From an uncultured Clostridium sp. (GTDB lineage Bacteria > Bacillota > Clostridia > UBA1212 > UBA1255): a stretch of 12,840 nt of DNA. Positions 1 to 12,768 of this stretch are shown here, one piece after another. The stretch spans positions 1 to 12,840 of the forward strand of contig USLW01000025.1 in NCBI GenBank assembly GCA_900555605.1, written 5' to 3'. The notes under the pieces were generated by a model. The model did not search any database. It saw nothing but the letters and a program-made list of their open reading frames with translations, and was not told where the DNA came from. Each line of letters begins with the position of its first letter. Within the stretch, counting starts at the first letter, position 1. The translations under genes and the position numbers were made by a program.

Positions 1-353
1 GTTCTCCGATTATCAGCAGAGCAACCGCGCTGATTGCCATGAATCAGCCTTCTCTGGAAAAATTTGAGCCGTTGGTGGAAGCGGACGGCCTGATCATTTT
101 AGACAGCAGTTTAGTTCCGGTCCGGCCGCAGAGAACGGATATCAAGGTGTTTACAATTCCGGCCACGGAAATGGCTTATGAGATGGGAAATGCCACGTAT
201 GCGGGGATTATACTCCTCGGGAAGCTGATCGGACAGACCGGCATCGTAACAATCGGAAATTTTGAAGAGGCACTAAGGAGTGTCTTGCCTGCCAGAAGGC
301 ACTATATGATTCCGGACGAAATGATTGCGCTGCATAAAGGAATGGAAGCCTGA
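1..353 (+). CDS. 2-oxoacid:ferredoxin oxidoreductase, gamma subunit (5' truncated)
   Basis: The gene enters from before the window. The reading frame is open from base 3 and the residues before the first ATG at 39 (SPIISRATALIA) continue the family's conserved stretch ahead of MNQPSL, so 39 is not the start. The visible C-terminal part has MNQPSLEKFEPLV, a DGLIILDSSLV strand and a helical segment AYEMGNATYAGIILLGKLIG, as in gamma subunits of ketoisovalerate, 2-oxoglutarate or indolepyruvate oxidoreductases (VorC/KorC/IorB type). These cytoplasmic complexes oxidatively decarboxylate 2-oxoacids to acyl-CoA and reduce ferredoxin, or run in reverse. The gamma subunit carries no cofactor motif, so the substrate cannot be read from this fragment. 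The gene ends 32 bases before aroB and is probably co-transcribed with it. The family call is firm; the substrate is unknown. Confidence 0.85.
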   Translation, partial: SPIISRATALIAMNQPSLEKFEPLVEADGLIILDSSLVPVRPQRTDIKVFTIPATEMAYEMGNATYAGIILLGKLIGQTGIVTIGNFEEALRSVLPARRHYMIPDEMIALHKGMEA

Positions 354-385
354 TTTCCCCGCGGAAAATACAAAGGAGATATCTG

Positions 386-1471
386 ATGGAACATTATATT
401 GTTGATCTGAAGGATCGATCATATCCGATTCTGATAGGCTCCGGCATTTTAACGGCTGCGGCAGAAACGGCGCTGAACAGCTGCGGAGGAACACCCTGCC
501 GCGTTTGTGTTGCGGGAGATTCTCATGTACGTACGCTTTACAGCCAGCGTCTGGAGGCTGCTTTAAAAGAGACCGGCTTTTCTGTGGTCTCTTTTTCCTT
601 CGAACCGGGAGAGTGCAGCAAATGCCTGCCTGTGCTTGAACAGCTGTGCTCGTTCCTGCTGCAGAATCAATTCGGCAGACATGATATGCTCATTGCGTTA
701 GGCGGGGGCGTCACCGGTGATCTGGTGGGCTTTGCCGCCGCTGTTTATATGCGGGGAATTCCTTATATTCAAATACCGACCTCTTTGATTGCACAGATTG
801 ACAGCTCCGTAGGAGGAAAAACTGCTGTGGATTTTGGCGGGGTAAAGAATATATTAGGGGCTTTTCATCAGCCTGCTGCTGTGGTAGCGGATGTCTCCCT
901 TTTAGAGACGTTAAGCAGCCGGGTTCTGCAGGACGGATTAGGCGAGATGGTAAAGTATGCGTTTTTAAAAGGCGGTTCCTTCTATGATAGAACCATGTCT
1001 ATGGAGCGGCCGGAAGATTTCTATACACAGGCACAGGCCCTTGTATCTGAATGTGTCCTTTACAAAAAAGGAGTAGTAGAACGGGACGAAAAGGAACAGG
1101 GTGAACGAATGCTGCTGAACTTAGGGCATACACTTGGGCATTGCATAGAAAGCTACCATCATTATCTCCGATATACACATGGAGAAGCGGTAGCTGTCGG
1201 CATGGCAGAAATGCTGCGTTATGCGGTACAGTATCACGGGGCTGATCCTGCGTTTGCCAAAGACGGAATCGCGCTGCTCAGACGGCTGAAGCTTCCAACG
1301 GTACCGGATACGGACAGAACTCTGCTGTATGAACGAGTGCTTCATGACAAAAAGGGAAACGGAAAGGAGCTCCGGATCGTGGTACCGTTTGCACCGGGCG
1401 ACGTACGGATTCTGCGTATAGAAAAAACGCTTTTTTTAGAACAAGTGAATCAACTGCAGCAAGATTGGTGA
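386..1471 (+). CDS. aroB: 3-dehydroquinate synthase
   Basis: This enzyme catalyses the second step of the shikimate pathway, turning DAHP into 3-dehydroquinate with NAD and a divalent metal, in the cytoplasm. The 361 residues match the usual length. The NAD-binding loop GGGVTGDLVGF lies at about 106-116, followed by IPTSLIAQIDSSVGGKTAVDF (about 130-150, with the substrate-binding Lys145). The metal ligands appear to be Glu187 (GLGEMVKYAF), His248 (NLGHTLGH) and His265 (YTHGEAVAVGM), spaced as in characterised AroB. The ATG start is supported by AAGGAG at 373-378, seven bases upstream. aroK follows after 18 bases and aroQ after that, so this is a middle-pathway shikimate operon. All key residues are present and the enzyme should be active. 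Confidence 0.97.
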   Translation: MEHYIVDLKDRSYPILIGSGILTAAAETALNSCGGTPCRVCVAGDSHVRTLYSQRLEAALKETGFSVVSFSFEPGECSKCLPVLEQLCSFLLQNQFGRHDMLIALGGGVTGDLVGFAAAVYMRGIPYIQIPTSLIAQIDSSVGGKTAVDFGGVKNILGAFHQPAAVVADVSLLETLSSRVLQDGLGEMVKYAFLKGGSFYDRTMSMERPEDFYTQAQALVSECVLYKKGVVERDEKEQGERMLLNLGHTLGHCIESYHHYLRYTHGEAVAVGMAEMLRYAVQYHGADPAFAKDGIALLRRLKLPTVPDTDRTLLYERVLHDKKGNGKELRIVVPFAPGDVRILRIEKTLFLEQVNQLQQDW

Positions 1472-1489
1472 AGGATAGGTGGAAGCGGC

Positions 1490-2011
1490 GTGGGAGAATA
1501 TTGCATTTATGACAGAATTATATTTATCGGTATGCCTTGTTCGGGAAAATCTTCGATTGGAAGGTCCGTGGCACAGTATTATGATTATGCATTCATTGAC
1601 ATGGATGATGAGATCGTAAAAAAGGCCGGCATGTCCGTAGAAGAGATTTTTGCACAGCTGGGGGAAGAAAAATTTCGAGAAATAGAAACAGCCGTGGCGC
1701 ATGATTTGAAAAACAAAAAGAAAGCGGTCATTGCCACCGGCGGCGGAATTGTAACGCGGCCGGACAATATGAAGCTGTTTCAGCAGGAGGGGAGCTTTAT
1801 TATATTTATTCACCGCGATTTTTTACGGCTTGCTACGACGCCGAAGCGGATTATGGATAAACGTCCGCTGCTGAAAAGTACCAGCTATGACAAATTGCTG
1901 GCGCTTTATCGGGAATATGCGGATTTTGAAGTATCAAACGACAGAAATAAAGAGGATGCAATTGCGAAGATCGTTCGTATCATTTTTAGAAAGAGTGCGC
2001 AGCTGGAATAG
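1490..2011 (+). CDS. aroK: shikimate kinase
   Basis: The product phosphorylates shikimate at the 3-hydroxyl using ATP, the fifth step of the shikimate pathway. It is 173 residues long, normal for this small P-loop kinase. The Walker A loop is GMPCSGKSS (14-22). The shikimate and Mg contacts are Asp37 and Asp39 in IDMDDEI, Arg63 in KFREIE, and the GGG loop at 84-86 (ATGGGIV). The lid carries Arg125 (KRPLL) and Arg141 (YREYADF). The start is GTG, chosen because AGGTGG lies seven bases upstream (1477-1482) and the next Met (M15) is already inside the P-loop. The gene lies between aroB and aroQ, and aroQ starts 21 bases after its stop. aroL is an equally valid symbol. Confidence 0.95.
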   Translation: MGEYCIYDRIIFIGMPCSGKSSIGRSVAQYYDYAFIDMDDEIVKKAGMSVEEIFAQLGEEKFREIETAVAHDLKNKKKAVIATGGGIVTRPDNMKLFQQEGSFIIFIHRDFLRLATTPKRIMDKRPLLKSTSYDKLLALYREYADFEVSNDRNKEDAIAKIVRIIFRKSAQLE

Positions 2012-2032
2012 ATCGGTAAGGAGAATGCGATT

Positions 2033-2461
2033 ATGAAGATATTGGTGATCAATGGTCCGAATCTGAACATGCTGGGGATCAGAGAGCCCGCGGTATACGG
2101 AAGCCGTACATATGAGGAATTATGTGCATATATTGAAGAAGAGGCTGCTGAAATCGGTGCTTCCGTAGATTTTATTCAGTCCAATCATGAAGGCGTGCTG
2201 ATTGATGCGATACAGGAAGCATATGGAGAGTATGACGGATTGGTGATCAATCCAGGCGCCTATACGCATTACAGCTATGCGATTTACGATGCGCTGAAAT
2301 CGGTTGGAATTCCTGCCGTAGAGGTTCATCTCAGTGATATCCGCAATCGGGAAACGTTCCGCGCTACCTCCGTTACCGCACCGGCCTGTGTCCTGCAGAT
2401 TGCGGGCCGCGGGTTTCAGGGATATGCAGAAGGAATACGCTATCTCACGGAAAGGAACTAA
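2033..2461 (+). CDS. aroQ: type II 3-dehydroquinate dehydratase
   Basis: This is the third shikimate-pathway step, dehydration of 3-dehydroquinate to 3-dehydroshikimate by the type II trans mechanism. The 142-residue length fits the small subunit of this usually dodecameric enzyme. The signature starts at the N-terminus, ILVINGPNLNMLGIREPAVYG, with Asn11, Arg17 and catalytic Tyr22 on the flexible loop. Asn73 and His79 sit in INPGAYTHYS, His99 in VEVHLSDI, and the substrate Arg in NRETFR (about 106-110). AAGGAG at 2018-2023, nine bases from the ATG, supports the start. The reading frame ends three bases before the YqeG gene, whose ribosome binding site lies in the aroQ 3' end, so the two are probably translated together. 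Confidence 0.97.
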   Translation: MKILVINGPNLNMLGIREPAVYGSRTYEELCAYIEEEAAEIGASVDFIQSNHEGVLIDAIQEAYGEYDGLVINPGAYTHYSYAIYDALKSVGIPAVEVHLSDIRNRETFRATSVTAPACVLQIAGRGFQGYAEGIRYLTERN

Positions 2462-2464
2462 TTT

Positions 2465-2950
2465 ATGGGCAAAGGGATGAAACCCGACAAAAGCATCGCG
2501 TGTATATATGATATTGACCCGGCGGAGATGCGTACCTTGGGCGTCAAGGGATTTTTATTTGATATTGACAACACCCTGGAAGTCTATGCGGCGCCTTTAC
2601 CGAGTGCACGGCTGCAGCAGTGGCTTTCGGAATTAAAACGGGAAGGCTTCCGCCTCGGCATTCTTTCAAATGCAAAAATTGTACGTGCAAAGCATTTTGC
2701 GGATGGCTTCGATTTTCCCGTGGAATTTGTGGGAAAAGCCGGGAAACCTTTAAAAAAAGGGTTTACGCAGCTGGCTGCTTTGCTGAAGCTCCGTCCTGCT
2801 GAAATTGCAATGGTAGGAGATCAGCTTTATACCGATATTTTAGGCGGAAATCGATTTGGCTGCTATACCATTTTAGTCAGCCCCATTGATTTGAGTCGGG
2901 AGCCTGCTTTTGTACGATTTAAACGGCTGCTTGAAAAACCGTTTTTATAA
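2465..2950 (+). CDS. yqeG: YqeG family HAD IIIA-type phosphatase
   Basis: The product is a 161-residue cytoplasmic HAD-superfamily phosphatase of the YqeG/YqeG-like group. HAD motif I is DIDNTL (Asp33 nucleophile, Asp35 acid/base), motif II is LSNA (Ser68), motif III is Lys94 in GKAGKPLKKG, and motif IV is GDQLYTD (Asp119, Asp124), followed by ILGGNRFG. All catalytic positions are present, so activity is expected. The physiological substrate of the family is not settled to my knowledge, although relatives act on phosphorylated lipid precursors. The start at 2465 is supported by AAAGGA near 2451-2456; Met5 (2477) is an alternative. The stop codon lies inside a terminator-like hairpin, so the 3' end of this gene also closes the shikimate operon. 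Confidence 0.9.
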   Translation: MGKGMKPDKSIACIYDIDPAEMRTLGVKGFLFDIDNTLEVYAAPLPSARLQQWLSELKREGFRLGILSNAKIVRAKHFADGFDFPVEFVGKAGKPLKKGFTQLAALLKLRPAEIAMVGDQLYTDILGGNRFGCYTILVSPIDLSREPAFVRFKRLLEKPFL

Positions 2951-2972
2951 TCGTTCAGAAAACGGTTTTTTT
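2934..2972 (+). terminator. intrinsic terminator overlapping the yqeG stop codon
   Basis: A perfect 12-base inverted repeat (AAAAACCGTTTT at 2934-2945 and AAAACGGTTTTT at 2959-2970) encloses a 13-base loop and runs into a T-tract (2966-2972). This is the form of a rho-independent terminator. It begins within the last codons of yqeG and has that gene's stop codon in the loop. It would separate the aro genes from the peptidase gene that starts 27 bases later. The core is only CCG/CGG, so termination may be partial, leaving read-through as a source of peptidase transcript. Confidence 0.75.
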
Positions 2973-2998
2973 AGAATAAAGAGACAGGAGGATACGGC

Positions 2999-4072
2999 GT
3001 GCTGGACAGAGTGAACCGCTTACGAGTCTTTTTACAGGAACAAAGTCTTGATGCGGCATTTATTACATCAGGAGAAAATGTGTTTTATTTATCGGGTTTT
3101 ACCGGATTCGGAGATGCGAGATTATTCATTACTGAAGAAGCTGCGGTTTTGTTAACTGATGCCAGATACGCGCTGCAGGCGGAACAGGAGGCGCCGCTGT
3201 TCACGCCGATCATTAAAAGTGCCGTTCATCTTCCCGCCTTCCGGGAACTGGTAGAAAAGCATGGTATCCGTTCGATCGCATTTGAAAATCAAAAAATACT
3301 ATATTCTGACTATATCCGATATACGGAGTTTGTCCCCGGACTGCGCTGGGCAGGATTGGATCATACAATTGAGCAAATTCGAAACCAAAAGGATATCGGA
3401 GAACAGCAGCGGATTCGGGAAGCCTGCAGGATTGCGGCGGACGCCTTCAACGAAACGCTGCCGTATCTGAGAGCAGGGATTACGGAACAGGATGTTGCCT
3501 GTGAATTGGAGTATCGGATGCGCAGACGCGGTGCGGCAAAACCGTCTTTTGATACGATTGTTGCTTCCGGAAAACGCGGTGCCATGCCGCACGGAACCGC
3601 GTCCGGCAAAAAATTGGAAAAAGGCGACGGAATCACAATGGATTTCGGAGCGGTTTACTGCGGCTATTGTTCGGATATGACGCGGACTGTTTTTTTAGAG
3701 GAGCCGGCACAAGAGCTCCGGCGGATCTATGAAATTGTATTAGAGGCTCAGCTGTGTGCAATAAATGGATTTTATGAGGGAATTGCGGCAAATTTACTGG
3801 ATCAGACCGCAAGGAATATCATTGCCTCCAACGGTTACGGCGCTTGTTTTGGCCATGGGCTGGGACATGGCGTAGGCGTTGAGATCCATGAAGGCGTCAA
3901 TATCAGTGCCAGAAGTCAGCAGCCTTTGACAGAGGGGATGGTGTTCAGTATAGAACCCGGAATTTATGTTCCTGATCTGGGCGGCGTCCGGATTGAGGAC
4001 TTGGTAACCGTATCCGGCGGAGCGCTTCAGATTCTGACGGCGGATGCTGCAAAGGATATTTTAATTCTGTAA
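2999..4072 (+). CDS. M24 family Xaa-Pro peptidase (aminopeptidase P / prolidase type)
   Basis: The product is a cytoplasmic dinuclear metallopeptidase that cleaves Xaa-Pro bonds. It has 357 residues: a creatinase-like N-terminal domain (about 3-125, with the typical FITSGENVFYLSGFTG opening) and a pita-bread catalytic domain (about 130-350). The metal ligands are all visible: Asp215 (MDFG), Asp226 (SDMTRT), His290 (GLGHGVG), Glu319 (SIEPG) and Glu333 (RIEDL). Catalytic His198 is in MPHGT. The start is GTG, with AGGAGG at 2986-2991 seven bases ahead; no better start is visible. In many Firmicutes this peptidase is followed by efp (elongation factor P). Here the next gene is a convergent AraC regulator overlapping its 3' end by 12 bases, so that linkage is broken. 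Sequence alone does not separate PepP from PepQ activity. Confidence 0.93.
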   Translation: MLDRVNRLRVFLQEQSLDAAFITSGENVFYLSGFTGFGDARLFITEEAAVLLTDARYALQAEQEAPLFTPIIKSAVHLPAFRELVEKHGIRSIAFENQKILYSDYIRYTEFVPGLRWAGLDHTIEQIRNQKDIGEQQRIREACRIAADAFNETLPYLRAGITEQDVACELEYRMRRRGAAKPSFDTIVASGKRGAMPHGTASGKKLEKGDGITMDFGAVYCGYCSDMTRTVFLEEPAQELRRIYEIVLEAQLCAINGFYEGIAANLLDQTARNIIASNGYGACFGHGLGHGVGVEIHEGVNISARSQQPLTEGMVFSIEPGIYVPDLGGVRIEDLVTVSGGALQILTADAAKDILIL

Positions 4073-5128
4073 GTAATTTGATTTATCTTTTACGATACCG
4101 GCAGCCTGCCGGCGGTATTCGCCCGGAGTACACTGGTAGGTCTGCTTAAATGTACGGATAAAAAATTCGGTTGACTCATATCCGACCTGATAGCATATTT
4201 CATTGATCTGGAGATTTGTTTCCCGCAGCATGGCACAGGCTTTGGTTAATCGAATATCACGCACGATTTTAATAAATGATGTTCCGGTCTGCCTTTTAAT
4301 CATATTGCCGATGTAGGTTGGTGAATAGTTGAATTGCTCCGCCAGCTCGTTCAGCGTCACGTCCTTATAATGATTCTGTATATAACGAAGAATTTTGTAA
4401 ATTTCTGATGATTGTGCCACTGCTTTTTTTGAAACAATGGCTTCATGGCTGCGCAGCAACTGGCAAAAAATTGTGCGCAGCAGATTTTCCATAGCCTTCA
4501 CACTGTATTGCTCCTGTATAATGCCTTCTGTCAAAAACAGATTTATTGTGCTGTGCAGCAGGGCATTTCCTTGGGTGGCGAAAAAAATATAGCTGTTGGA
4601 ATCTTTCGCGTAAAGAATATGGGAGAAGAAAAGAGACAGTGCCGCATCATCTGTGAAAATGTCAAAAAATACTTCTTTAAATGTACTCTTTCTAATAATC
4701 ACATTGATAATAATACTTTCGTCATCGAATACGCCTAATGTATGAGAGACTCCCGGCGCAATGATGCAGATATCATGCTGTTTCATATGAATCGGCGTGC
4801 CCTCGATCGTATTTTCACAACTGCCGCTGAAAACGTAAATCATTTCAAAAAAGGCATGTTCATGAAGAAATAGAGGCGTGTATCGCTCATGCTTTATAAA
4901 AGACACATTTGCGCTGTTATCTTCGATATACAGCTCTGAAATATAATCTGCGCCTGCCATATGAAGCTCCGGCAGCCATTGGCTGTATTTCAGCGGGCGG
5001 CTTGACACAATTGTGTGCAAAAACATATCAAATTGTTTTTTATCTTTTTTCGCTTCATAATATTCTTTATAAAAAGCTTCGTTTTCAGTGTATTTGCTGA
5101 AGTGCTCCAAAAGTGCCTGTTCGTCCAT
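4061..5128 (-). CDS. AraC family regulator with N-terminal cupin-like domain
   Basis: The product is a 355-residue DNA-binding regulator. The N-terminal half has a cupin-like ligand-sensing segment (about 75-150: HEHAFFEMIYVFSG, then IIAPGVSHTLG), as in AraC proteins that sense sugars or glycans. The C-terminal region (about 243-341) holds the two AraC helix-turn-helix motifs: LNELAEQFNYSPTYIGNMIK, and INEICYQVGYESTEFFIRTF followed by the TPGEYRR signature. I chose ATG 5128 because GGAGG (5135-5139) lies six bases upstream and a good promoter sits just above it. The open frame runs to 5257 but the extra 43 codons would cover that promoter. The gene is divergent from SP1 with 171 bases between them, which points to control of SP1 and the genes after it. 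Confidence 0.93.
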   Translation of the reverse strand: MDEQALLEHFSKYTENEAFYKEYYEAKKDKKQFDMFLHTIVSSRPLKYSQWLPELHMAGADYISELYIEDNSANVSFIKHERYTPLFLHEHAFFEMIYVFSGSCENTIEGTPIHMKQHDICIIAPGVSHTLGVFDDESIIINVIIRKSTFKEVFFDIFTDDAALSLFFSHILYAKDSNSYIFFATQGNALLHSTINLFLTEGIIQEQYSVKAMENLLRTIFCQLLRSHEAIVSKKAVAQSSEIYKILRYIQNHYKDVTLNELAEQFNYSPTYIGNMIKRQTGTSFIKIVRDIRLTKACAMLRETNLQINEICYQVGYESTEFFIRTFKQTYQCTPGEYRRQAAGIVKDKSNYLQN

Positions 5129-5165
5129 GCTGTGCCTCCATTTCCAATTGCGTTTATGATAGCTC

Positions 5166-5194
5166 CATTGTATCACAATGAAGAAAAAAGTCAA
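5166..5194 (-). promoter_or_regulatory. sigma-A promoter of the first AraC gene with overlapping palindrome
   Basis: Read on the minus strand there is a -35 TTGACT (5189-5194), a 16-base spacer and a -10 TACAAT (5167-5172) with an extended TG element just upstream (TGATACAAT). The leader is about 30 bases. The -10 overlaps the inverted repeat CATTGT-ATC-ACAATG (5166-5180), so a repressor bound there would block this promoter. Autoregulation is a reasonable inference but unproven. Confidence 0.65.
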
Positions 5195-5200
5195 TTCTAT

Positions 5201-5245
5201 ATCCTTGTTTTGTGTATACGGGATCCTTCTAAAACCGATTATAAT
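5201..5245 (+). promoter_or_regulatory. candidate activator-dependent promoter of SP1
   Basis: A consensus -10 TATAAT lies at 5240-5245, 55 bases before the SP1 start codon. No recognisable -35 sits 16 to 18 bases above it. The hexamer ATCCTT occurs twice, at 5201-5206 and 5223-5228, 22 bases apart (about two helical turns), the second one next to where the -35 should be. This layout resembles an AraC-type activator site, but six-base repeats can occur by chance. Confidence 0.35.
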
Positions 5246-5299
5246 AAATGTGATCAAGATGTTAACAGAATATCATACATATTAGGAGGTTATGAGATT

Positions 5300-6853
5300 A
5301 TGAAACGATTTATGAAAAGGGTTTTCGCAATAGCTGTTTGCCTGACTCTCGGGCTCAGCTGTCTCGGACTGCTTTCGGCAGCTGCGGAAACAAAGACCGT
5401 GAACGTAAAAGGCGACGGGGCAACCACAATCTTTGTAGCGGAATGCTTTGCGGAACAGGAAGGGCTTGTAGCGGGAGAACAGGACAACTGCGGCATTTAC
5501 TTTGACGATGTTGGGGTCAACGAATGGTTTACAGTAAAGCTGAATATTGCAAAAGCCGGGAACTATAAGGTCGCATTCAGTACCGGATGGGGAAAAGGCC
5601 ATGTTGCCGGAAATTTCAAGCTGGAGCTTGACGGTCAGGAAATCGGAACGCTGGTGAATACCGTTGAAGGTATTGATTGGAGAAGCTGGAAGAATACCAG
5701 TGAAATTACGGTTACCTTGCCCGCAGGCGCTGCCACGCTGCGCGTCACATCCTTAGGCAGCGGACCGAATATTCGTGCTCTGAAATTTGCACCGGAAAAT
5801 ATGACAATTCCGGGGGACTATCTTGCAGACTTTTTTAACGATTCCGATGTTGGTACAGATCCGCTGCCTGTAGTAAACAGCGACACCATGGGGGTTCATT
5901 TCAGCGCAACGCAAGCGTTTCATGCTGTAGAGCTGCACTGCCCGACCTGGCAGAAAACGGGAAGCGGTCTGACCATTCAGGTATTTGCCTGGAATTCCTC
6001 TTACGAGGAGTCTCTTACGGGCGCTGTGCTCGCAGAAAAGACGATAGAGAATATTTCGGACGGTGCCTGGATCCGGTTTTATTTTGATGAGCTAAAGGCC
6101 GGTGAATACCTGCTGCATATCAAGAATTCAGGGAAAAATCCGGATTCCTCTGTGGGGATATACGCGATGAAGGCGTCTGTCGATTATGCGGAAACCTTCA
6201 GACAGGGCCTCAAGCTTGATGACAGGTCTGCCAGAATGCGCGTTGTATATGCATATCCGACGGATACGCCTCATGGTGAAATCAATACGAAATTCAGTCA
6301 GAGCATTCCGTTCCACGGCGAAGGCAGAAATCCTGTGGAAGTGAAGGGAAATTATGCCGTACAATTTGCGACGACTGCAAAGTTTGAATCGCTGAGTATG
6401 GATTGCCCCAGCTGGAGCAATAATTTAGGAAATTTGACGTTTTCGCTGTACCGCTGGAATACGAATTATGAGACCACGTTAAAGGGCAGTGCTGCGGCAA
6501 GCCACGAGTTTGTAAACTATACGGATAATGCCACTTTAACATTCAAATTTGACGAAATGGAAGCAGGCGAATATTTGCTTTTGATTGAAAATACAAGCGA
6601 GGATCCGAAGGAACAGGTCGGATTGTATGCAGACAATCAAGCATTCGCACACGCAAAGAACTACCAGGATGGTTCGGAGGTTCAGACTGCTGCTTGGCTG
6701 AAGGTTCAGTATACGGAAGAAGTAGAAAATAAATACGGAAAAATCAGTAATCCCAGCACAGGAGAAACTGGAATGCTGATGGGAATCTGTGTATTTATGC
6801 TTGCGGCTGCCGCTGCTTTACCGGTAATCCGCAGAAAATATACACATATCTAA
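5300..6853 (+). CDS. SP1: surface protein with CBM6/35-like domain, two copies of the shared YxW domain and an NPSTGE C-terminus
   Basis: The start at 5300 is chosen because AGGAGG (5284-5289) precedes it and a signal peptide follows at once (MKRFMKRVFAIAVCLTLGLS, cleavage near SAAAE, about 28-30). The open frame reaches back to 5015 but that part runs through the promoter region and the regulator. The mature protein has a CBM6/CBM35-like beta-sandwich (about 32-166, with VAECFAEQEG, LELDGQEIG and TLPAGAATLRV), then two copies of the shared domain (about 171-326 and 333-482). Copy A has Trp231/Tyr235 and GEYLL at 268-272; copy B has Trp386/Tyr390 and GEYLL at 423-427. The C-terminus has NPSTGE (484-489), a hydrophobic segment and RRK, the layout of a sortase substrate of NPxTG type. 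It is probably a wall-bound glycan-binding protein and the first gene of a set with SP2 and SP3. The ligand is unknown. Confidence 0.88.
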   Translation: MKRFMKRVFAIAVCLTLGLSCLGLLSAAAETKTVNVKGDGATTIFVAECFAEQEGLVAGEQDNCGIYFDDVGVNEWFTVKLNIAKAGNYKVAFSTGWGKGHVAGNFKLELDGQEIGTLVNTVEGIDWRSWKNTSEITVTLPAGAATLRVTSLGSGPNIRALKFAPENMTIPGDYLADFFNDSDVGTDPLPVVNSDTMGVHFSATQAFHAVELHCPTWQKTGSGLTIQVFAWNSSYEESLTGAVLAEKTIENISDGAWIRFYFDELKAGEYLLHIKNSGKNPDSSVGIYAMKASVDYAETFRQGLKLDDRSARMRVVYAYPTDTPHGEINTKFSQSIPFHGEGRNPVEVKGNYAVQFATTAKFESLSMDCPSWSNNLGNLTFSLYRWNTNYETTLKGSAAASHEFVNYTDNATLTFKFDEMEAGEYLLLIENTSEDPKEQVGLYADNQAFAHAKNYQDGSEVQTAAWLKVQYTEEVENKYGKISNPSTGETGMLMGICVFMLAAAAALPVIRRKYTHI

Positions 6854-6873
6854 CGGCTGAGAACAGAACGAAT

Positions 6874-6894
6874 CGGAGTGCTTTCTGTACTCCG
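6874..6894 (+). repeat. short stem-loop after SP1
   Basis: CGGAGT (6874-6879) and ACTCCG (6889-6894) form a six-base stem with a nine-base loop, 21 bases after the SP1 stop. The sequence after it (TACGGTTTATAGGG) has no proper T-tract, so it is at best a weak terminator or a 3'-end stabiliser. Confidence 0.4.
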
Positions 6895-6904
6895 TACGGT
6901 TTAT

Positions 6905-6943
6905 AGGGTCTGCGGCATGATGAAAATGGATCTCGCAGACCCT
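6905..6943 (+). repeat. strong stem-loop in the SP1-SP2 gap
   Basis: AGGGTCTGCG (6905-6914) and CGCAGACCCT (6934-6943) form a perfect ten-base stem with six G/C pairs and a 19-base loop. No T-run follows; instead the SP2 ribosome binding site (AAGGGA, 6952-6957) comes eight bases later. It could act as an RNA-processing or stabilising element that sets different SP1 and SP2 levels, or affect SP2 translation. It is not a classical intrinsic terminator. Confidence 0.6.
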
Positions 6944-6969
6944 GTGTATAGAAGGGAAGTGCTGCATTT

Positions 6970-7734
6970 ATGAAAAAGAAACTATTATCCTATATCGGTT
7001 TCATAACGATTTGGGCACTGCTGTTTGCAGGCTGCGGAGTTCCGGATCATAATGGAAAAACAGATATAACTCCTGGAAAAGGCACGGCTTCTCCTGCGGC
7101 GACGGTTACGGTTCTGCCGACGGAAAATGCCGCTGCGACAGATGTGCCGCCAACAGAAGAGCCCACTGAGAAGCCGACTGAAAAACCGGCGCTTCCCACC
7201 ATTGAACCGGGCACGGGACAATACGCAGAAGGAATTGCGGATCCGGACAGCGCTGCAAAGGTATATTTTTGTGAGAACGGTATTTCCGGTCAAAATCAAA
7301 AGGCAGAGTACAACACAGGTTCCATGTGCATACAATTTTTCCCGACAACGACCTTTGATGCGATCGGTGTGCACTGTCCGACCTGGACGGCAAAATCCGG
7401 ATATTATGTAACCTTCTACTTGTATGCGTGGGCAGGCAGCTATGAGGCAACGATTCAATCAGATACGATTGCAGAAGGTGAGTTTTCAGACTGGCCGGAT
7501 GGGGAAGAGGTTACGCTTCGCTTTGACGAGCCGCTGCCAGATGGAGAATATCTTTTAGAAATGGTATGCGGAGGGATTACCACCGGCGTCTGGTATCAGC
7601 CGCAGGAGCATGTTGGCCAGCGGGCATATCGCGATGATGAGATCTGGTATGATGCCTCTATCCGCTTTTGTGTTTATTATACCCAGACTCCGAATCAGCC
7701 CTTCGGACCGCTTTCCGATTCCGGTCTGGAGTAA
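6970..7734 (+). CDS. SP2: lipoprotein with one copy of the shared YxW domain
   Basis: The 254-residue product opens with a lipoprotein signal peptide: MKKK, a hydrophobic core and LLFAGC, with Cys22 as the lipidated residue. The -3 position is Phe, slightly off the usual Leu/Val/Ile. A Pro/Thr-rich stalk follows (about 35-80) with tandem PTEKP units. The rest (about 85-247) is one copy of the shared domain: VHCPTW (134-139, nearly the LHCPTW of SP1 copy A), Trp154/Tyr158 in LYAWAGSYEAT, GEYLL (192-196) and the closing FGPLSDS. It has no catalytic motif I recognise and is probably a membrane-tethered binding protein. The start is supported by AAGGGA at 6952-6957, a slightly long 12-base spacing. 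It is likely co-transcribed with SP1 across the hairpin-containing gap of 116 bases. Confidence 0.88.
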   Translation: MKKKLLSYIGFITIWALLFAGCGVPDHNGKTDITPGKGTASPAATVTVLPTENAAATDVPPTEEPTEKPTEKPALPTIEPGTGQYAEGIADPDSAAKVYFCENGISGQNQKAEYNTGSMCIQFFPTTTFDAIGVHCPTWTAKSGYYVTFYLYAWAGSYEATIQSDTIAEGEFSDWPDGEEVTLRFDEPLPDGEYLLEMVCGGITTGVWYQPQEHVGQRAYRDDEIWYDASIRFCVYYTQTPNQPFGPLSDSGLE

Positions 7735-7826
7735 TCAAATTTTTATCATGTATAAATCTTTTTACTTTTCACGCCCTGCCGGCCGGGAATATGACCGGTT
7801 TCTTATTATATTTTAGATTTATTCTC

Positions 7827-7838
7827 ATAAGCGCTTAT
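7827..7838. promoter_or_regulatory. 12-base palindrome with a LacI-family operator core upstream of SP3
   Basis: ATAAGCGCTTAT is a perfect palindrome 98 bases before the SP3 start. Its centre AAGCGCTT fits the AANCGNTT core bound by LacI/GalR-family regulators. The outer bases do not match the TG...CA ends of a catabolite-response element. The 201-base gap between SP2 and SP3 otherwise holds no gene and no convincing -35/-10 pair. An operator for SP3 is possible; no LacI gene is in the window. Confidence 0.35.
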
Positions 7839-7935
7839 CGGCTGTACTGCGTAAAATGCATGTTCCGCCGCTGCTGTATTTTGCCCTTGCGATAGGCGCT
7901 GGAAGAGAATGGCCGCGGCGGGGAAATGAGGCATT

Positions 7936-10401
7936 ATGAAACGGAAGACCTTGATTATGTATTTATCTGCTGCACTTTGCGTCTGCTGTGCGTTGGCAGC
8001 TTTCGGAACGGCAGCGCCGCTGTGGCAGGCTGCGGAAGAAAACCGCCTCGTCTGTTTTTATGAAGATACGGAGGCTGCGCCGCAGGAGGTTGCGACTACT
8101 GAGAATGAATGCTACGGGATTCGCTTTCATGCAACCGGGTCCTTCAAAAAGATTGAAATATATGTGCAGCAGGTTCGCCTGTCTGTGAGCAGGATGAAGC
8201 TGTCGCTTTATAAATGGGATCAGACGTATCAAAAGACCATTCGTTCCGTGCCTGTCTATGAAAATACCGCAGAGGGGTTTTCCAGAAGAAGCTATGTGGC
8301 ATTTGCATTTCCGGATTATGAGCAGATGACCGGAGAAGGCGAATATCTTGCGGTGTTCAGCGGATTCGGCGGTAATCCTACGCTCAATAAATATAAAAAT
8401 GATATGGAAAATGTAGAACTATATTTCGGAGGTGTTTTAATGGGGGGCAGTTTGGTTGCCAATCTCGAATACGGCAATGCGCCGGCAGTGCCGCTGGGCA
8501 CGTTATCTGAAAAAGGCGGTACGCAGGCAAACGGCGTGGAAATTGCGGGACCGGATACCTGGGCGGCAACAGATGGATTAGGCAGAACGCTGCCTGATCA
8601 CAGCAGTACCGGGAATGTCCGAGAGGAAAAATTTGTCGGTATGTTTTATTGGACTTGGCACTGCCGTTTTTATACGTTGCCCAGCGGAGACGTCACACAG
8701 GTGTTGCGCGAACACCCGGAAATCGTACATGATTACAAAAGTCCGCTGTGGGAGGGCAAAACACAATTTTTCTGGAATGAGCCGGTCTACGGATATTATA
8801 ACGGATTGGATCAATGGGTATTTCGAAAACAAGCGGAACTCCTGGCTGATGCCGGTGTGGATGTCATCATTTTTGACAACTCAAACGGGACAGATACGTT
8901 TATGGAAGGACTGCTTGTTTTGCTGGAGACCTTTGCCCAGGCGCGTGCGGATGGGGTCCGAACGCCGCAGGTTTCCTTTCTGCTGCCCTTTTGGGATTAC
9001 GAAAACGTAGCCATTCAGCTGCGCGAGCTGTATGAAAAAATTTATTCGGTAGGCAAATACAAGGAATTATGGTTTTATTGGAAGGGAAAGCCTCTGATGA
9101 TGGGGTCCCCCGATCATTTAGATGTGCACGATCCTGATGATAAAGAGATCTTTGACTTCTTCACATATCGTCCTTGTCAGCCCTCTTATACAACGGGACA
9201 GGAATATCCGGGACAGTGGGGATGGCTTTCCGTATATCCGCAGAAGGTTTATACGAATTTAGATGGTACGCCGGAGCAGATATCTGTAGGCGTGGCGCAG
9301 AATCATAATGAAAAGATCGGCTTAACTGCCATGAATGGCGAAAATGTATTCGGCCGGACTTATTCCGGAAAATTAGGCGGATATGATACGCGTGAAGACG
9401 CAAAATTATACGGGGCTAATTTTGCGGAGCAGTTTGAGTATGCGCTGGAGGTTGATCCGGAGTTTATATTTATTACCGGATGGAATGAATGGCGCGCCGG
9501 TCGTTATGATGAATGGTGCGGTGTGGTGAATGCTTTTCCGGATACCTTTGATGATACCTACAGCCGCGATATCGAACCGTCAAAGGGTGATTTAAAAGAT
9601 CATTATTATTATCAAATGGTTTCTTATATCCGCCGCTTCAAGGGCACAAATCCCTTGCCGGCTGCCTCTGAAAGCAAAACCATCGATATCTATTCTGAGG
9701 AGGACCAATGGGCGGCTGTGTCGCCGAATTATCTGGCATATGGCGGAAATACGCTGGCTCGCGACTGCGACGGCTATACGCCGTATCACTATACGAATCA
9801 TACGGGCCGCAACGATATTACAGGCGCAAAGCTGACATACGATCAGGAATATCTTTATTTTATGGTTGAAACGGCAGGGGTGCTGACTTCACCTTCTGAT
9901 CCGGGCTGGATGCGGCTGTTTATTGATGTAGAAGGTATGGAAGCGGCAAATTGGGAAACCTTTGAATATGTTGTTAACAGAGTGAATCCCGGAGAAACGG
10001 CGGTTCTGGAGCGTTCCTTAGGAGGATGGAACTGGGAAGAGGTCGGACAGGTCGCATATCATGTCAGCGGCAATCGTCTGCAGATTAAAATTCCGCGTAT
10101 GCTGATCGGCGTGTCGGCGGCAGACTTTACGATCCATTTTAAATGGTCTGATAATATGCAGGCAGAAGGTGATATCATGGACTTTTACAATAATGGCGAC
10201 GTTGCCCCTGGCGGCCGTTTTAAATATACGTTCAGCAGCGGAAAGGGCAGTCTGAATCCGCAGGAGCCGGCGTCTCCGGAAAGAATGTCCACGGGTCAAA
10301 AGATCTTATTGGCTTCTGTGGGCGCGGGAGTACTGATCGGTGCGGCAGTCGGCGGAATCTGTATCGGCAAAAAATGCAAATCGAAAAAGGCCCAGGCGTA
10401 A
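7936..10401 (+). CDS. SP3: membrane-anchored glycoside-hydrolase-like protein with an N-terminal YxW domain and a C-terminal CBM9-like domain
   Basis: The 821-residue product has a signal peptide (about 1-27, ending near GTAA) and four regions. Residues 38-192 are one copy of the shared domain (Trp94/Tyr98 in LYKWDQTY, GEYLA at 135-139, closing PLGTLSEK). Residues 230-575 look like a TIM-barrel glycoside hydrolase resembling GH99/GH71-type proteins: VGMFYWTWH (234-242), a WVFRKQAELLADAGVDVIIFDNSN strand with Asp314, ITGWNEW (513-519) and the closing YYYQMVSYIRRFKG. Residues 580-765 resemble a CBM9/DOMON-like sandwich (RNDITGAKLTYDQEYLYFMVE and RLFIDVEG). The C-terminus is a membrane span (about 788-811) and a Lys-rich tail. 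If Glu518 matches the first catalytic Glu of GH99, the second one, three residues on, is Ala521. Substrate and activity are inferred only. The gene ends eight bases before the convergent second regulator. Confidence 0.8.
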   Translation: MKRKTLIMYLSAALCVCCALAAFGTAAPLWQAAEENRLVCFYEDTEAAPQEVATTENECYGIRFHATGSFKKIEIYVQQVRLSVSRMKLSLYKWDQTYQKTIRSVPVYENTAEGFSRRSYVAFAFPDYEQMTGEGEYLAVFSGFGGNPTLNKYKNDMENVELYFGGVLMGGSLVANLEYGNAPAVPLGTLSEKGGTQANGVEIAGPDTWAATDGLGRTLPDHSSTGNVREEKFVGMFYWTWHCRFYTLPSGDVTQVLREHPEIVHDYKSPLWEGKTQFFWNEPVYGYYNGLDQWVFRKQAELLADAGVDVIIFDNSNGTDTFMEGLLVLLETFAQARADGVRTPQVSFLLPFWDYENVAIQLRELYEKIYSVGKYKELWFYWKGKPLMMGSPDHLDVHDPDDKEIFDFFTYRPCQPSYTTGQEYPGQWGWLSVYPQKVYTNLDGTPEQISVGVAQNHNEKIGLTAMNGENVFGRTYSGKLGGYDTREDAKLYGANFAEQFEYALEVDPEFIFITGWNEWRAGRYDEWCGVVNAFPDTFDDTYSRDIEPSKGDLKDHYYYQMVSYIRRFKGTNPLPAASESKTIDIYSEEDQWAAVSPNYLAYGGNTLARDCDGYTPYHYTNHTGRNDITGAKLTYDQEYLYFMVETAGVLTSPSDPGWMRLFIDVEGMEAANWETFEYVVNRVNPGETAVLERSLGGWNWEEVGQVAYHVSGNRLQIKIPRMLIGVSAADFTIHFKWSDNMQAEGDIMDFYNNGDVAPGGRFKYTFSSGKGSLNPQEPASPERMSTGQKILLASVGAGVLIGAAVGGICIGKKCKSKKAQA

Positions 10402-10409
10402 GGCGGGAT

Positions 10410-11315
10410 CTATTTTCTTTCATGAGACGCCTGTCTTTGCGTCATGACTTTTTTATATTCCATAGGAGTGAAGGTGGTATACTGCTTAAATGCGGAAGAA
10501 AAATACTGTGAGGAAGAAAAACCGAGGCTGAGCGCAATGTCTGTCACGGTCTGGTCTGTCGTACGCAGCATTTTCTCCGCATACTTGATTTTTTCCCGGA
10601 TGATATATTCCCGCGGCGGAAAACATAATTCTTCTTTAAACTTGGCCTGAAACCTGGGCTTGCTCATATCCACCATGGCAGCTAAATCGTCCAGCGAGAT
10701 GAATTCCGTGATATGTTCGCCGATATACTGGAGAACCGGCTGAAAAACAGATTCCCCGCAGGCAATTTCTTTTTGTGCGCAATCAATCATATACAGCAGC
10801 AGATCTGTAATGGTATTGCGCAGAATTGTCTTTTTAAACGGCGTATTTTCTTCATACAAATCAATCAGCCGCTCAAAGTATCTGCCGCCCCTCGAACCTA
10901 ATGTAACAATCCTCTTTTTTATAAAAGTTTCTTTAAAGCTTTTGACCAAGCAGGCTGTTTCCTCCGGCGTACTGCCTAAACAGCCCGGCCCGAATTGCTC
11001 CATTTTGATAATCATGTAGAAGAATTTCGATTTATCAAAAGGAATCCCGCCTGTGCTGTGTTCCTCATTGGGAAGCGTGACGAATGCCTGACCGGCGTTG
11101 ACGACATAGGTGCTGCCTAAAACCTCATAGGTCTGCCTGCCTTTCAGCTGATATGTAATTTCAAAGGCCGACGGCAGAATCTCGGGAAACAGGGGCACAC
11201 TGTTCTTTTTATATACGACCTTTCCGATATAAAAGGGAAACGCCCGGTCGATTAATTCATAATCTGCAACGATACGGCCGCCGTACTGATCGGTTCCTTT
11301 ATATAAAGATATCAT
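10410..11315 (-). CDS. second AraC family regulator
   Basis: The 301-residue product has an N-terminal half with a cupin-like segment (about 45-100: FEITYQLKGRQTYEVLG, then AGQAFVTLPNEEHS) and an AraC-type C-terminal domain (about 192-290). The two helix-turn-helix units are LDDLAAMVDMSKPRFQAKFK and VTDIALSLGFSSSQYFSSAF, followed by the family signature TPMEYKKV. The start is supported by GGAGGG (11324-11329 on the complementary strand), eight bases ahead. The gene converges on SP3 and diverges from SP4 with 163 bases between them, so SP4 is the likely first target. It is only distantly similar to the first regulator, so the two probably sense different signals or bind different sites. Confidence 0.92.
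   Translation of the reverse strand: MISLYKGTDQYGGRIVADYELIDRAFPFYIGKVVYKKNSVPLFPEILPSAFEITYQLKGRQTYEVLGSTYVVNAGQAFVTLPNEEHSTGGIPFDKSKFFYMIIKMEQFGPGCLGSTPEETACLVKSFKETFIKKRIVTLGSRGGRYFERLIDLYEENTPFKKTILRNTITDLLLYMIDCAQKEIACGESVFQPVLQYIGEHITEFISLDDLAAMVDMSKPRFQAKFKEELCFPPREYIIREKIKYAEKMLRTTDQTVTDIALSLGFSSSQYFSSAFKQYTTFTPMEYKKVMTQRQASHERK
10421..10454 (+). terminator. candidate terminator for SP3
   Basis: CAT+GACGC (10421-10423 and 10426-10430, with a two-base bulge) pairs with GCGTC+ATG (10439-10446) around an eight-base loop, and is followed by AC and a run of six T (10449-10454). It lies just inside the 3' end of the convergent regulator gene, where an SP3 transcript would have to stop. The T-run is two bases off the stem and the stem is bulged, so strength is uncertain. 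Confidence 0.4.
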
Positions 11316-11363
11316 CCTGCCATCCCTCCGTTTTTGCCGAATATGAATCCGTGCTGTGCAATT

Positions 11364-11398
11364 GAAAATTTTATATTATAATATCATGATAAATTTTC
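11364..11398. promoter_or_regulatory. AT-rich symmetric promoter/operator region between the second AraC gene and SP4
   Basis: ATTATAAT (11375-11382) is a palindrome that gives a perfect -10 TATAAT on both strands (minus 11375-11380, plus 11377-11382). Beside it is the palindrome TATCATGATA (11382-11391), and the whole is bracketed by the inverted repeat GAAAATTT (11364-11371) and AAATTTTC (11391-11398). On the minus strand this is probably the regulator's -10; its -35 (around 11397-11402) is poor. AT-richness makes some of the symmetry cheap. Confidence 0.4.
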
Positions 11399-11424
11399 GA
11401 ACGCAAGCTGCTGCCCTATTTATT

Positions 11425-11430
11425 TATAAT
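11425..11430 (+). promoter_or_regulatory. candidate -10 box of SP4
   Basis: TATAAT lies 49 bases before the SP4 start codon. The -35 position holds CGCAAG-like sequence, far from consensus, which fits a promoter that needs an activator. It was chosen by match and position alone. Confidence 0.35.
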
Positions 11431-11478
11431 CAAAATGTAATTACGATTCTATTTTAACAAAGAAAGGAATGAATATGA

Positions 11479-12768
11479 ATGATGCTGAAAGAAGGAAAAC
11501 GGAACATCGTAATGGCCATAACGGTACTCCTGCTGATCTGCATGACGGTAGTTCCGTCTTTTGCTGCGGAGCAGCAGCTGAATCCGTACGGAAGCGATGC
11601 GGCGGAGAAGCCGTATTTAAAGGTAACGGACGGAACACTGGCAATGAGAGTCGACGTAACGGGGGGAAATTTTACTGGCTTGATCATTCCCAGCTGGTAT
11701 GTCGGCGTATTTACGCTGTCAATCGGGGTGTATAAATGGGATCAATCGTATGAGGCAACGATTGCGGCAGAGCCGGTGTACGGCGGCACAATACAGGGAA
11801 ACTCACCCGGCGTTTGGATTGATCCGGGACAGCAGGACTTTCGGGTGGATTTTGAACGTGCATTCCCGGAGGGAACATATTTGGTGGTTTTTTATCATAA
11901 TTCCGGCGATCCGCTGCATATACCGCTTCATTCTGCAAGCGACCGGGCAATGTGTTATGTGGACGGCAAGGAGGATCCCGCGATTACGCTGCGCATAACC
12001 TGCCTGACGGATCCGGAGGCGGCGCTGAATGATACGCCGAATGTGAAGGAACCGTTTATGACCGATTCGGCCATGAATGCATACGGCGACGGAGCCGCTT
12101 TAGACGGGACCAGCTATCTTTCTCTGAATAACTATTATACGGTGGCGCAGCGTTTTACCGCGGATAAGGGACTGCTGACGGGAATGCTGATCAATCAGCT
12201 GTTTTTAGCTTCTGATTATGCTGAGATCATGCTGACCCTTTATAAATGGGATACGGATTATGAGACCACCTTAGCTGGGACGGAGATCTTTTACGGTGTG
12301 TTCGAGGCGGAAAAGGATCCCGAGGATGAGACGTATCATGATTTCATTATGCCTTTTAATCGTGCTTTCTCTCAAGGGGATTATTTGGTGGTTTTGGAGT
12401 CTTTGGACGGCGTGAATCTGTGGGCGCATGCACCAAAGGTAGGAATTGAGACCTATCTGGATGACGAGCCGTATGAGGACGGAACCCTAAAGCTCAGCTA
12501 CATGGTCAGCTACACTGCGGAGCTCAATGAAACGCCTGTTTTAAAGCCGACACCTGCGCCGACACAAGTACCCACTGAAAAACCGGAAGCAACGAGTACG
12601 CCTCCCGCTACGTCTGCGGTAACTCCAGGAAAAACGCCAGTGAAATCGGCAAATCAGAAAAATTCTTCAGATAACAATACCATTCTGTACATCGCGGTCA
12701 GTGCGGCCGCAGTCGTTGTAATTGCCGCTGCTGTCATTCTGATTGTACGGGTAAAAAGGAAAAAATAA
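11479..12768 (+). CDS. SP4: membrane-anchored surface protein with two copies of the shared YxW domain
   Basis: The 429-residue product has a signal peptide (MMLKEGKRNIVMAITVLLLI onward, cleavage near SFAAEQ, about 29-30), two copies of the shared domain (about 40-185 and 196-353), a Pro/Thr-rich stalk (about 355-395, including PTEKP as in SP2) and a C-terminal membrane span (about 401-424) with the tail RVKRKK. Copy A has Trp87/Tyr91 in VYKWDQSYEAT and GTYLV at 132-136. Copy B has Trp257/Tyr261 in LYKWDTDYETT and GDYLV at 300-304. There is no catalytic domain and no sorting motif. AAAGGA (11463-11468) precedes the ATG by about ten bases; the next ATG is directly adjacent and equally possible. 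The probable role is an exposed binding protein working with SP1 to SP3, controlled by the divergent AraC gene. Confidence 0.88.
   Translation: MMLKEGKRNIVMAITVLLLICMTVVPSFAAEQQLNPYGSDAAEKPYLKVTDGTLAMRVDVTGGNFTGLIIPSWYVGVFTLSIGVYKWDQSYEATIAAEPVYGGTIQGNSPGVWIDPGQQDFRVDFERAFPEGTYLVVFYHNSGDPLHIPLHSASDRAMCYVDGKEDPAITLRITCLTDPEAALNDTPNVKEPFMTDSAMNAYGDGAALDGTSYLSLNNYYTVAQRFTADKGLLTGMLINQLFLASDYAEIMLTLYKWDTDYETTLAGTEIFYGVFEAEKDPEDETYHDFIMPFNRAFSQGDYLVVLESLDGVNLWAHAPKVGIETYLDDEPYEDGTLKLSYMVSYTAELNETPVLKPTPAPTQVPTEKPEATSTPPATSAVTPGKTPVKSANQKNSSDNNTILYIAVSAAAVVVIAAAVILIVRVKRKK

Follow-up and report, generated by a model that had tools for sequence, protein, structure and literature searches.

A probable new family of non-catalytic jelly-roll modules with a predicted carbohydrate-binding role in four neighbouring surface proteins of an uncultured Clostridium

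Six segments in four neighbouring surface proteins (SP1 to SP4) of an uncultured Clostridium sp. probably constitute a new family of non-catalytic, jelly-roll carbohydrate-binding module (CBM), which would tether the hydrolase-like SP3 and hold glycan at the cell surface. The domain family to which the segments belong is real and had no description; in all likelihood it adds one more family to the CBMs and is not an entirely new type of system. The layout of the locus is given in Table 1 for the window, that is, the whole stretch of 12,840 nucleotides that was analysed; bit scores refer to a profile built from 60 module copies, none of them from the window (the window-free profile). Three types of anchor can be read from the sequence, as had been proposed in a preliminary description of this DNA: a lipobox in SP2, NPSTG followed by a membrane tail in SP1, and membrane tails in SP3 and SP4. 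That description was silent on the enzyme-type barrel of SP3 (GH71/GH99 fold) and on the CBM6 of SP1.

Table 1. Features of the locus on the window
Feature	Position	Strand	Description
AraC-family regulator, divergent from SP1	4061..5257	-	Pfam HTH_18, E 1.1e-22
SP1 gene, 517 aa	5300..6853	+	Signal peptide, CBM6, module copies 1 and 2; NPSTG-like motif, membrane helix and basic tail at the C terminus
CBM6 region of SP1	5387..5794 (approximate limits)	+	Pfam CBM_6, E 8.8e-8
Module copy 1 (SP1a)	5825..6286	+	128.5 bits, window-free profile
Module copy 2 (SP1b)	6326..6754	+	143.3 bits, window-free profile; copy used for folding, pLDDT 92.8
SP2 gene, 254 aa	6970..7734	+	Lipoprotein with FAGC lipobox; Pro/Thr linker and module copy 3
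Module copy 3 (SP2)	7267..7722	+	136.0 bits, window-free profile
SP3 gene, 821 aa	7936..10401	+	Signal peptide, module copy 4, barrel of GH71/GH99 type, second beta domain, membrane helix at the C terminus
Module copy 4 (SP3, N-terminal)	8032..8514	+	109.3 bits, window-free profile; SP1b strand order in the model
SP3 catalytic-type (beta/alpha) barrel	8548..9651	+	GH99 and GH71 are the nearest folds
SP3 second beta-rich domain	9658..10236	+	From the model; weak CBM9 match, E 0.0023
AraC-family regulator, divergent from SP4	10410..11315	-	Pfam HTH_18, E 5.9e-18
SP4 gene, 429 aa	11479..12768	+	Signal peptide, module copies 5 and 6, Pro/Thr linker, membrane helix at the C terminus
Module copy 5 (SP4a)	11578..12027	+	62.2 bits, window-free profile
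Module copy 6 (SP4b)	12067..12492	+	42.9 bits, window-free profile

The preliminary description had aligned the four proteins by eye into one module of about 150 residues, with two copies in SP1, one each in SP2 and SP3, and two in SP4. This assignment is borne out both by BLASTP and by the window-free profile. In a database of the four proteins, all pairs match one another, from SP1-SP2 (E 4e-16), SP1-SP3 (4e-10), SP3-SP4 (7e-9) and SP1-SP4 (2e-8) to SP2-SP4 (8e-6) and SP2-SP3, the weakest (0.002). The window-free profile recovers all six copies at 42.9 to 143.3 bits, against at most 10.5 bits for 4,000 shuffled proteins; its one further match in the four proteins, a stretch scoring 6 bits, falls within the CBM6 region of SP1. 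The residue numbers and spacings quoted earlier all proved exact on recount. An aromatic-x-Trp with Tyr at +4 is present in 6/6 copies (W231/Y235 and W386/Y390 in SP1, numbered with the ATG at 5300 as start, the only start for which SP1 residue numbers are valid; W154/Y158 in SP2; W94/Y98 in SP3; W87/Y91 and W257/Y261 in SP4), and the distance from this Trp to G-[E/D/T]-Y-L is 37, 37, 38, 41, 45 and 43 residues, respectively. Four of the six copies close with G-x-[L/I]-[S/N], which is absent from both copies of SP4, and SP4b is the most divergent of the six.

SP1b, predicted alone as 156 residues, folds into a jelly-roll beta-sandwich with a pLDDT of 92.8 and a pTM of 0.88. The models of the SP1b and SP3 copies have a common strand order, and of the 73 positions in SP1b strands, 66 fall on a strand of SP3 when the two are aligned; the beta-sandwich proposed earlier thus finds support in both models. 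Judged from these models, the module appears to be a discrete, self-contained, non-catalytic domain, occurring alone, in tandem and fused. Among the structure matches listed, phage baseplate and tail proteins come closest in fold, and the near solved folds include the lectin-like domain of Cwp84 and the PHR domains of E3 ligases.

The earlier suggestion of an exposed aromatic ligand surface found no support for the WxxxY motif. Its Trp column is W in 61 of 66 copies and aromatic in 66/66, and the Tyr of G-x-Tyr is conserved in 65/66. Since WxxxY is conserved in copies with and without other loop aromatics, a structural role fits better, and the motif was rated structural and set aside as a ligand site; it marks the family and probably belongs to the core. 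As an alternative candidate ligand site, the loops carrying Pro-x-Trp (W372 in SP1b) and Gly-Val-Trp/Tyr may offer a lead only. Both loop aromatics are found in 67, neither in 38 and one in 14 of 119 copies (Fisher 4e-17, valid if the copies are independent). A tree built without these columns requires 2 changes to account for the 'both' and 'neither' groups, and 6 and 7 for the single columns, and the number of independent pairs differing in loop aromatics is 1 on supported branches and 6 on all branches. The co-variation proves nothing, because so few changes might reflect one event.

The expectation that the module belongs to no named family also stood. Searches of the window proteins against Pfam-A, NCBIfam and PHROG gave no model credibly covering the module, and 0 of 66 copies matched a Pfam CBM family at E ≤ 0.1. 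Searching family databases and predicting structures, as had been recommended, gave one shared fold and no credible match to a named family. NCBIfam matches of single copies from the 66-copy alignment were weak and scattered (best E 0.002) and were judged to be chance. A module profile (A2) matched nothing among PDB sequences better than E 0.34; its fourth match, a surface glycan binding protein at E 0.78, was discounted. One chain matched by the query A1 at E 0.0026 and the ankyrin-type chains matched by SP3 (best E 0.0004) were likewise judged spurious. A literature search found no paper naming the module, a word search being poorly suited to a module without a name.

A profile built from the six copies detected 130 copies in 97 of 125 proteins, comprising 121 database proteins (two of which are SP1 and SP3 of the window or near copies) and the four window proteins. 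SP1 has only a 99% self copy and one relative in the protein database, and SP4 has nine relatives besides itself; these are few because word-based searches miss such a divergent family. A genome scan yielded 79 loci, mostly from Clostridia of the herbivore gut according to the sequence records, and also from Bacteroidota and a few others; some presumably come from anaerobic digesters. Together with the window, they hold 84 module copies in 75 ORFs, and 57 of these ORFs carry the GH71/GH99-like enzyme domain, which is predicted to be of carbohydrate-active type, as are the GH130-like propellers into which the module is inserted in Bacteroidota; 18/75 lack the enzyme domain. With further neighbourhoods the count rises to 153 copies in 132 ORFs, some genes being counted twice in overlapping loci. 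The module is carried by lipoproteins, sortase-type wall proteins, membrane-anchored proteins and GH71/GH99-like enzymes, and in loci retrieved with the enzyme, fusion to it is more frequent than any other architecture. Two Clostridia genomes have as many as 29 (G003) and 30 matches.

SP3 is one member of a large GH71/GH99-like enzyme family without a family name, found mainly in Clostridia and having at least 4,504 database relatives. On the predicted structure its barrel has the GH99 fold, with GH71 also among the nearest folds. Searched against Pfam, SP3 matched no family above the cut-off (best quoted, WbsX at E 0.008), and the GH99 model gave no match at E ≤ 1; among 120 listed relatives of SP3, a GH99 Pfam match is precomputed in three. 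A single one of these 120 has a precomputed match, in the second beta-rich domain, to PF06452, which we take to be CBM9-like. The position presumed to hold the second glutamate of GH99 (the pair is E333/E336, numbered after PDB titles), three residues past the motif Glu, is occupied by Ala in 18 of 19 sequences and by Val in the other, with the equivalence judged by eye. Compared with GH99 on this by-eye motif equivalence, the acid pair appears to be different in SP3-type enzymes.

The best independent evidence for a carbohydrate context comes from Bacteroidota. All five module-bearing Bacteroidota loci among the 79 carry the module inside a propeller-type protein in a gene run with SusD; a SusC-type protein is present in 4/4 tested, and two to four GH99-like paralogues in 5/5. 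The propeller protein of L062 has no PDB relative at E ≤ 0.01, whereas a relative was found for that of L058. Among 395 Bacteroidia genomes scanned, the genome used as the centre gave the only clear match. In the class sampled, module genomes are nested in enzyme genomes: all 11 genomes with the module have the enzyme, which occurs in 20 of 291 (9/9 and 18 of 289 once the seeds G003 and G005 are set aside).

The locus has syntenic relatives. L001 has genes like SP3, SP2 and the regulator divergent from SP1 in a row (58, 49 and 51% identity to the window), and this regulator is also 44% identical to an ORF of L011. In L095, an SP4-like gene (42%) adjoins an ORF 50% identical to the regulator divergent from SP4, and GH20 and GH127 lie in the same stretch, as do a lipoprotein carrying the module and a pair of GH99-like genes; in L119, an SP1-like protein with three modules has a GH78-type gene nearby, and also one like the regulator divergent from SP1. 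The idea of a dedicated system stands for the window locus and these relatives and suits this locus better than the family at large: in G003, 10 of the 15 stand-alone module genes examined have no GH71/GH99-like enzyme within 4.5 kb. An enzyme lies within this distance of 5/15 such genes in G003 and 6/18 in G005, a total of 11/33 that is partial, because several stretches stop at contig ends, and that leaves out contigs C11, C130 and C19 of G005 (in L005, L001 and L007) and C9 and C23 of G003. On C130 of G005, outside this count, one module lipoprotein adjoins the enzyme. The 70 module neighbours in G005 include six AraC HTH, two GH20, two GH127 and two GH43 domains (25 of 110 families listed), against at most one AraC (outside the 25 of 131 families listed), two sulfatases and two BNR proteins in 79 control proteins from 18 arbitrary contig starts of the same genome. 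With one control AraC the Fisher p is 0.05, and with none 0.01, so that the enrichment of AraC and enzymes near modules is suggestive at most. Among 59 module neighbours in G003, no glycoside hydrolase appears in the 25 of 77 families listed, and glucuronyl-esterase-type, F5/8-C and fucose isomerase proteins are included; several of the stand-alone copies in G003 score near the bottom of the range, at 30-50 bits.

These observations bear on what else the segments might be. Chance or convergent likeness of unrelated beta-sandwiches could be imagined, since SP1b is only 15-31% identical to the other window copies, and yet it has next to no probability: the scores of all six copies with the window-free profile, far above the 4,000 shuffles, together with the strand alignment of SP1b and SP3, were judged to refute it already. 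It is unlikely, though worth weighing, that the module serves protein-protein contact or packing, bracing the SP3 catalytic domain or joining surface proteins without touching sugar. The lectin-like domain of Cwp84, which packs against its protease, and the PHR domains are near folds, and the best-conserved residues of the module look structural; however, on lipoproteins and wall-type proteins the module, single or in tandem, has no enzyme to brace, and the SusD-bearing loci have the module inserted in a second, unrelated enzyme-type fold.

Rather improbable, too, is a general surface adhesin directed at host mucus, at other cells or at the glycan of the bacterium's own wall, with the enzyme link as one use of several. 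A broader adhesive role keeps some plausibility because many stand-alone module genes of G003 and G005 are without a nearby enzyme (22 of the 33 examined, within 4.5 kb); many of the matches in the two genomes with 29 and 30 of them are on sortase-type or membrane-anchored proteins, and the phage proteins named above are the closest folds listed. Against it, the module-bearing genomes of the class sampled are a subset of the enzyme-bearing ones, and the syntenic relatives of the window place the module with glycoside hydrolases and AraC regulators.

Under the preferred reading, that of a carbohydrate-binding module, the SP3 copy would keep the fused GH71/GH99-like hydrolase, if active, on its polysaccharide, while the modules of SP2 (lipoprotein), SP1 (wall-sorted) and SP4 (membrane-anchored) would retain this polysaccharide, or a glycan related to it, at the surface, where it could be cut and taken up close to the cell. 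The two AraC-type regulators would probably activate the locus in response to the sugar, and the four proteins would be co-regulated and co-operate. The GH20, GH127, GH78 and GH43-type domains of neighbours point at most to a complex glycan of mixed sugars as substrate. A bolder proposal, to which we give somewhat less than an even chance, is that the module is the common glycan handle of a Gram-positive counterpart to the Sus surface apparatus, in which one polysaccharide is the common target of a lipoprotein, a wall protein of sortase type, a membrane protein and a hydrolase whose family has an acid pair apparently unlike that of GH99, and that this partnership arose in, or moved into, Bacteroidota SusC/SusD loci independently. 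The Pfam and NCBIfam models searched name neither the module family nor, a few GH99-matching relatives excepted, the companion enzyme family. If the module binds glycan, it would give a handle on the polysaccharide diet of uncultured, largely herbivore-gut bacteria and illustrate a possible way for Gram-positive cells to present a single module through different kinds of anchor. Its interest is moderate and is raised by the partnership with the enzyme family across two phyla.

Among known systems, the beta-sandwich CBMs of CAZy (CBM6, CBM35, CBM36 and CBM15) resemble the module in their fold, although it has no match to the Pfam CBM families; as far as Pfam profiles and PDB sequences (E at least 0.34) show, it stands apart from them. 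CBM families are still being named, as the reports on CBM112 (PMC13357471) and CBM114 (PMC13254593), with the most recent numbers met here, indicate. CBM112, described as a beta-sandwich inserted in a catalytic domain with demonstrated beta-mannan specificity (PMC13357471), is a useful precedent for the module. The lectin-like domain of Cwp84 of Clostridioides difficile (PDB 4ci7) is 10% identical to the module and is attached to a cysteine protease. In its report it is called lectin-like from its fold, with the usual sugar site seemingly absent and the function left open (PMC4089489), which is a caution against reading sugar binding from a fold. In a 2024 phage paper, this domain is among the structural matches of Bacillus phage tail proteins, treated there as CBM folds (PMC11406892). 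The baseplate domain of phage phi812 (PDB 9eui, 9euf and 9euj), 10-13% identical to the module, is part of the phage attachment machinery. GH99 endo-alpha-mannosidase/mannanase and GH71 alpha-1,3-glucanase are like the SP3 barrel in fold, although SP3 has no Pfam match to them. The Sus-type surface glycan-binding proteins of Bacteroidota are surface lipoproteins that hold polysaccharide for neighbouring hydrolases. The window differs from these systems in combining lipoprotein, sortase-like and membrane anchors and in that SusC/SusD were not seen among its ORFs (six Pfam-scanned, the others read by eye) within 12.8 kb; the likeness extends to the module itself, which occurs in a lipoprotein-like protein of the SusD-bearing Bacteroidota loci.

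Outside the window, the module, the putative carbohydrate-binding domain of SP1-SP4, is found inserted near the N-terminus of propeller-type, lipoprotein-like proteins at five Bacteroidota loci (L058, L060, L062, L063 and L078), each of which also encodes SusD and two to four GH99-like paralogues. At L062, a gene for a DUF5722 protein separates the propeller gene that carries the module from a GH99-like one. At L095, a module-bearing lipoprotein is followed by two consecutive GH99-like ORFs, in both of which no Pfam family was matched at E ≤ 0.01. The adjacent wall-sorted-type pair of L113 (about 1,157 residues each; tails NPPTG and NPGTG) adjoins genes of ordinary appearance.

Coordinates of the features
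Feature	Position	Pfam E
SP3 barrel, GH71/GH99 fold	window 8548-9651	
Propeller-type protein with module	L058:6429-7871	
Propeller-type protein with module	L060:6357-7820	
Propeller-type protein with module	L062:9803-11245	
Propeller-type protein with module	L063:6406-7854	
Propeller-type protein with module	L078:5152-6651	
DUF5722 protein	L062:7686-9785	4e-125
GH99-like ORF	L095:8993-10729	
GH99-like ORF	L095:10705-12714	
Wall-sorted-type protein, two weak module copies	L113:4549-8022	
Wall-sorted-type protein, two weak module copies	L113:8296-11766	

Positions 1-4072 of the window, as judged by eye from the ORF list, presumably carry shikimate-pathway and housekeeping genes, including an AroB-like synthase (ORF at 386), a kinase (1490), a dehydratase (2033), a phosphatase and a peptidase, which puts the surface locus in an ordinary chromosome context. 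The barrel of the exported protein SP3 belongs to a large, unnamed family of the GH71/GH99 fold with at least 4,504 relatives, a candidate for a separate new glycoside hydrolase family. The site at which the second glutamate of GH99 is expected, its equivalence being judged by eye, is Ala or Val in all 19 family members compared.
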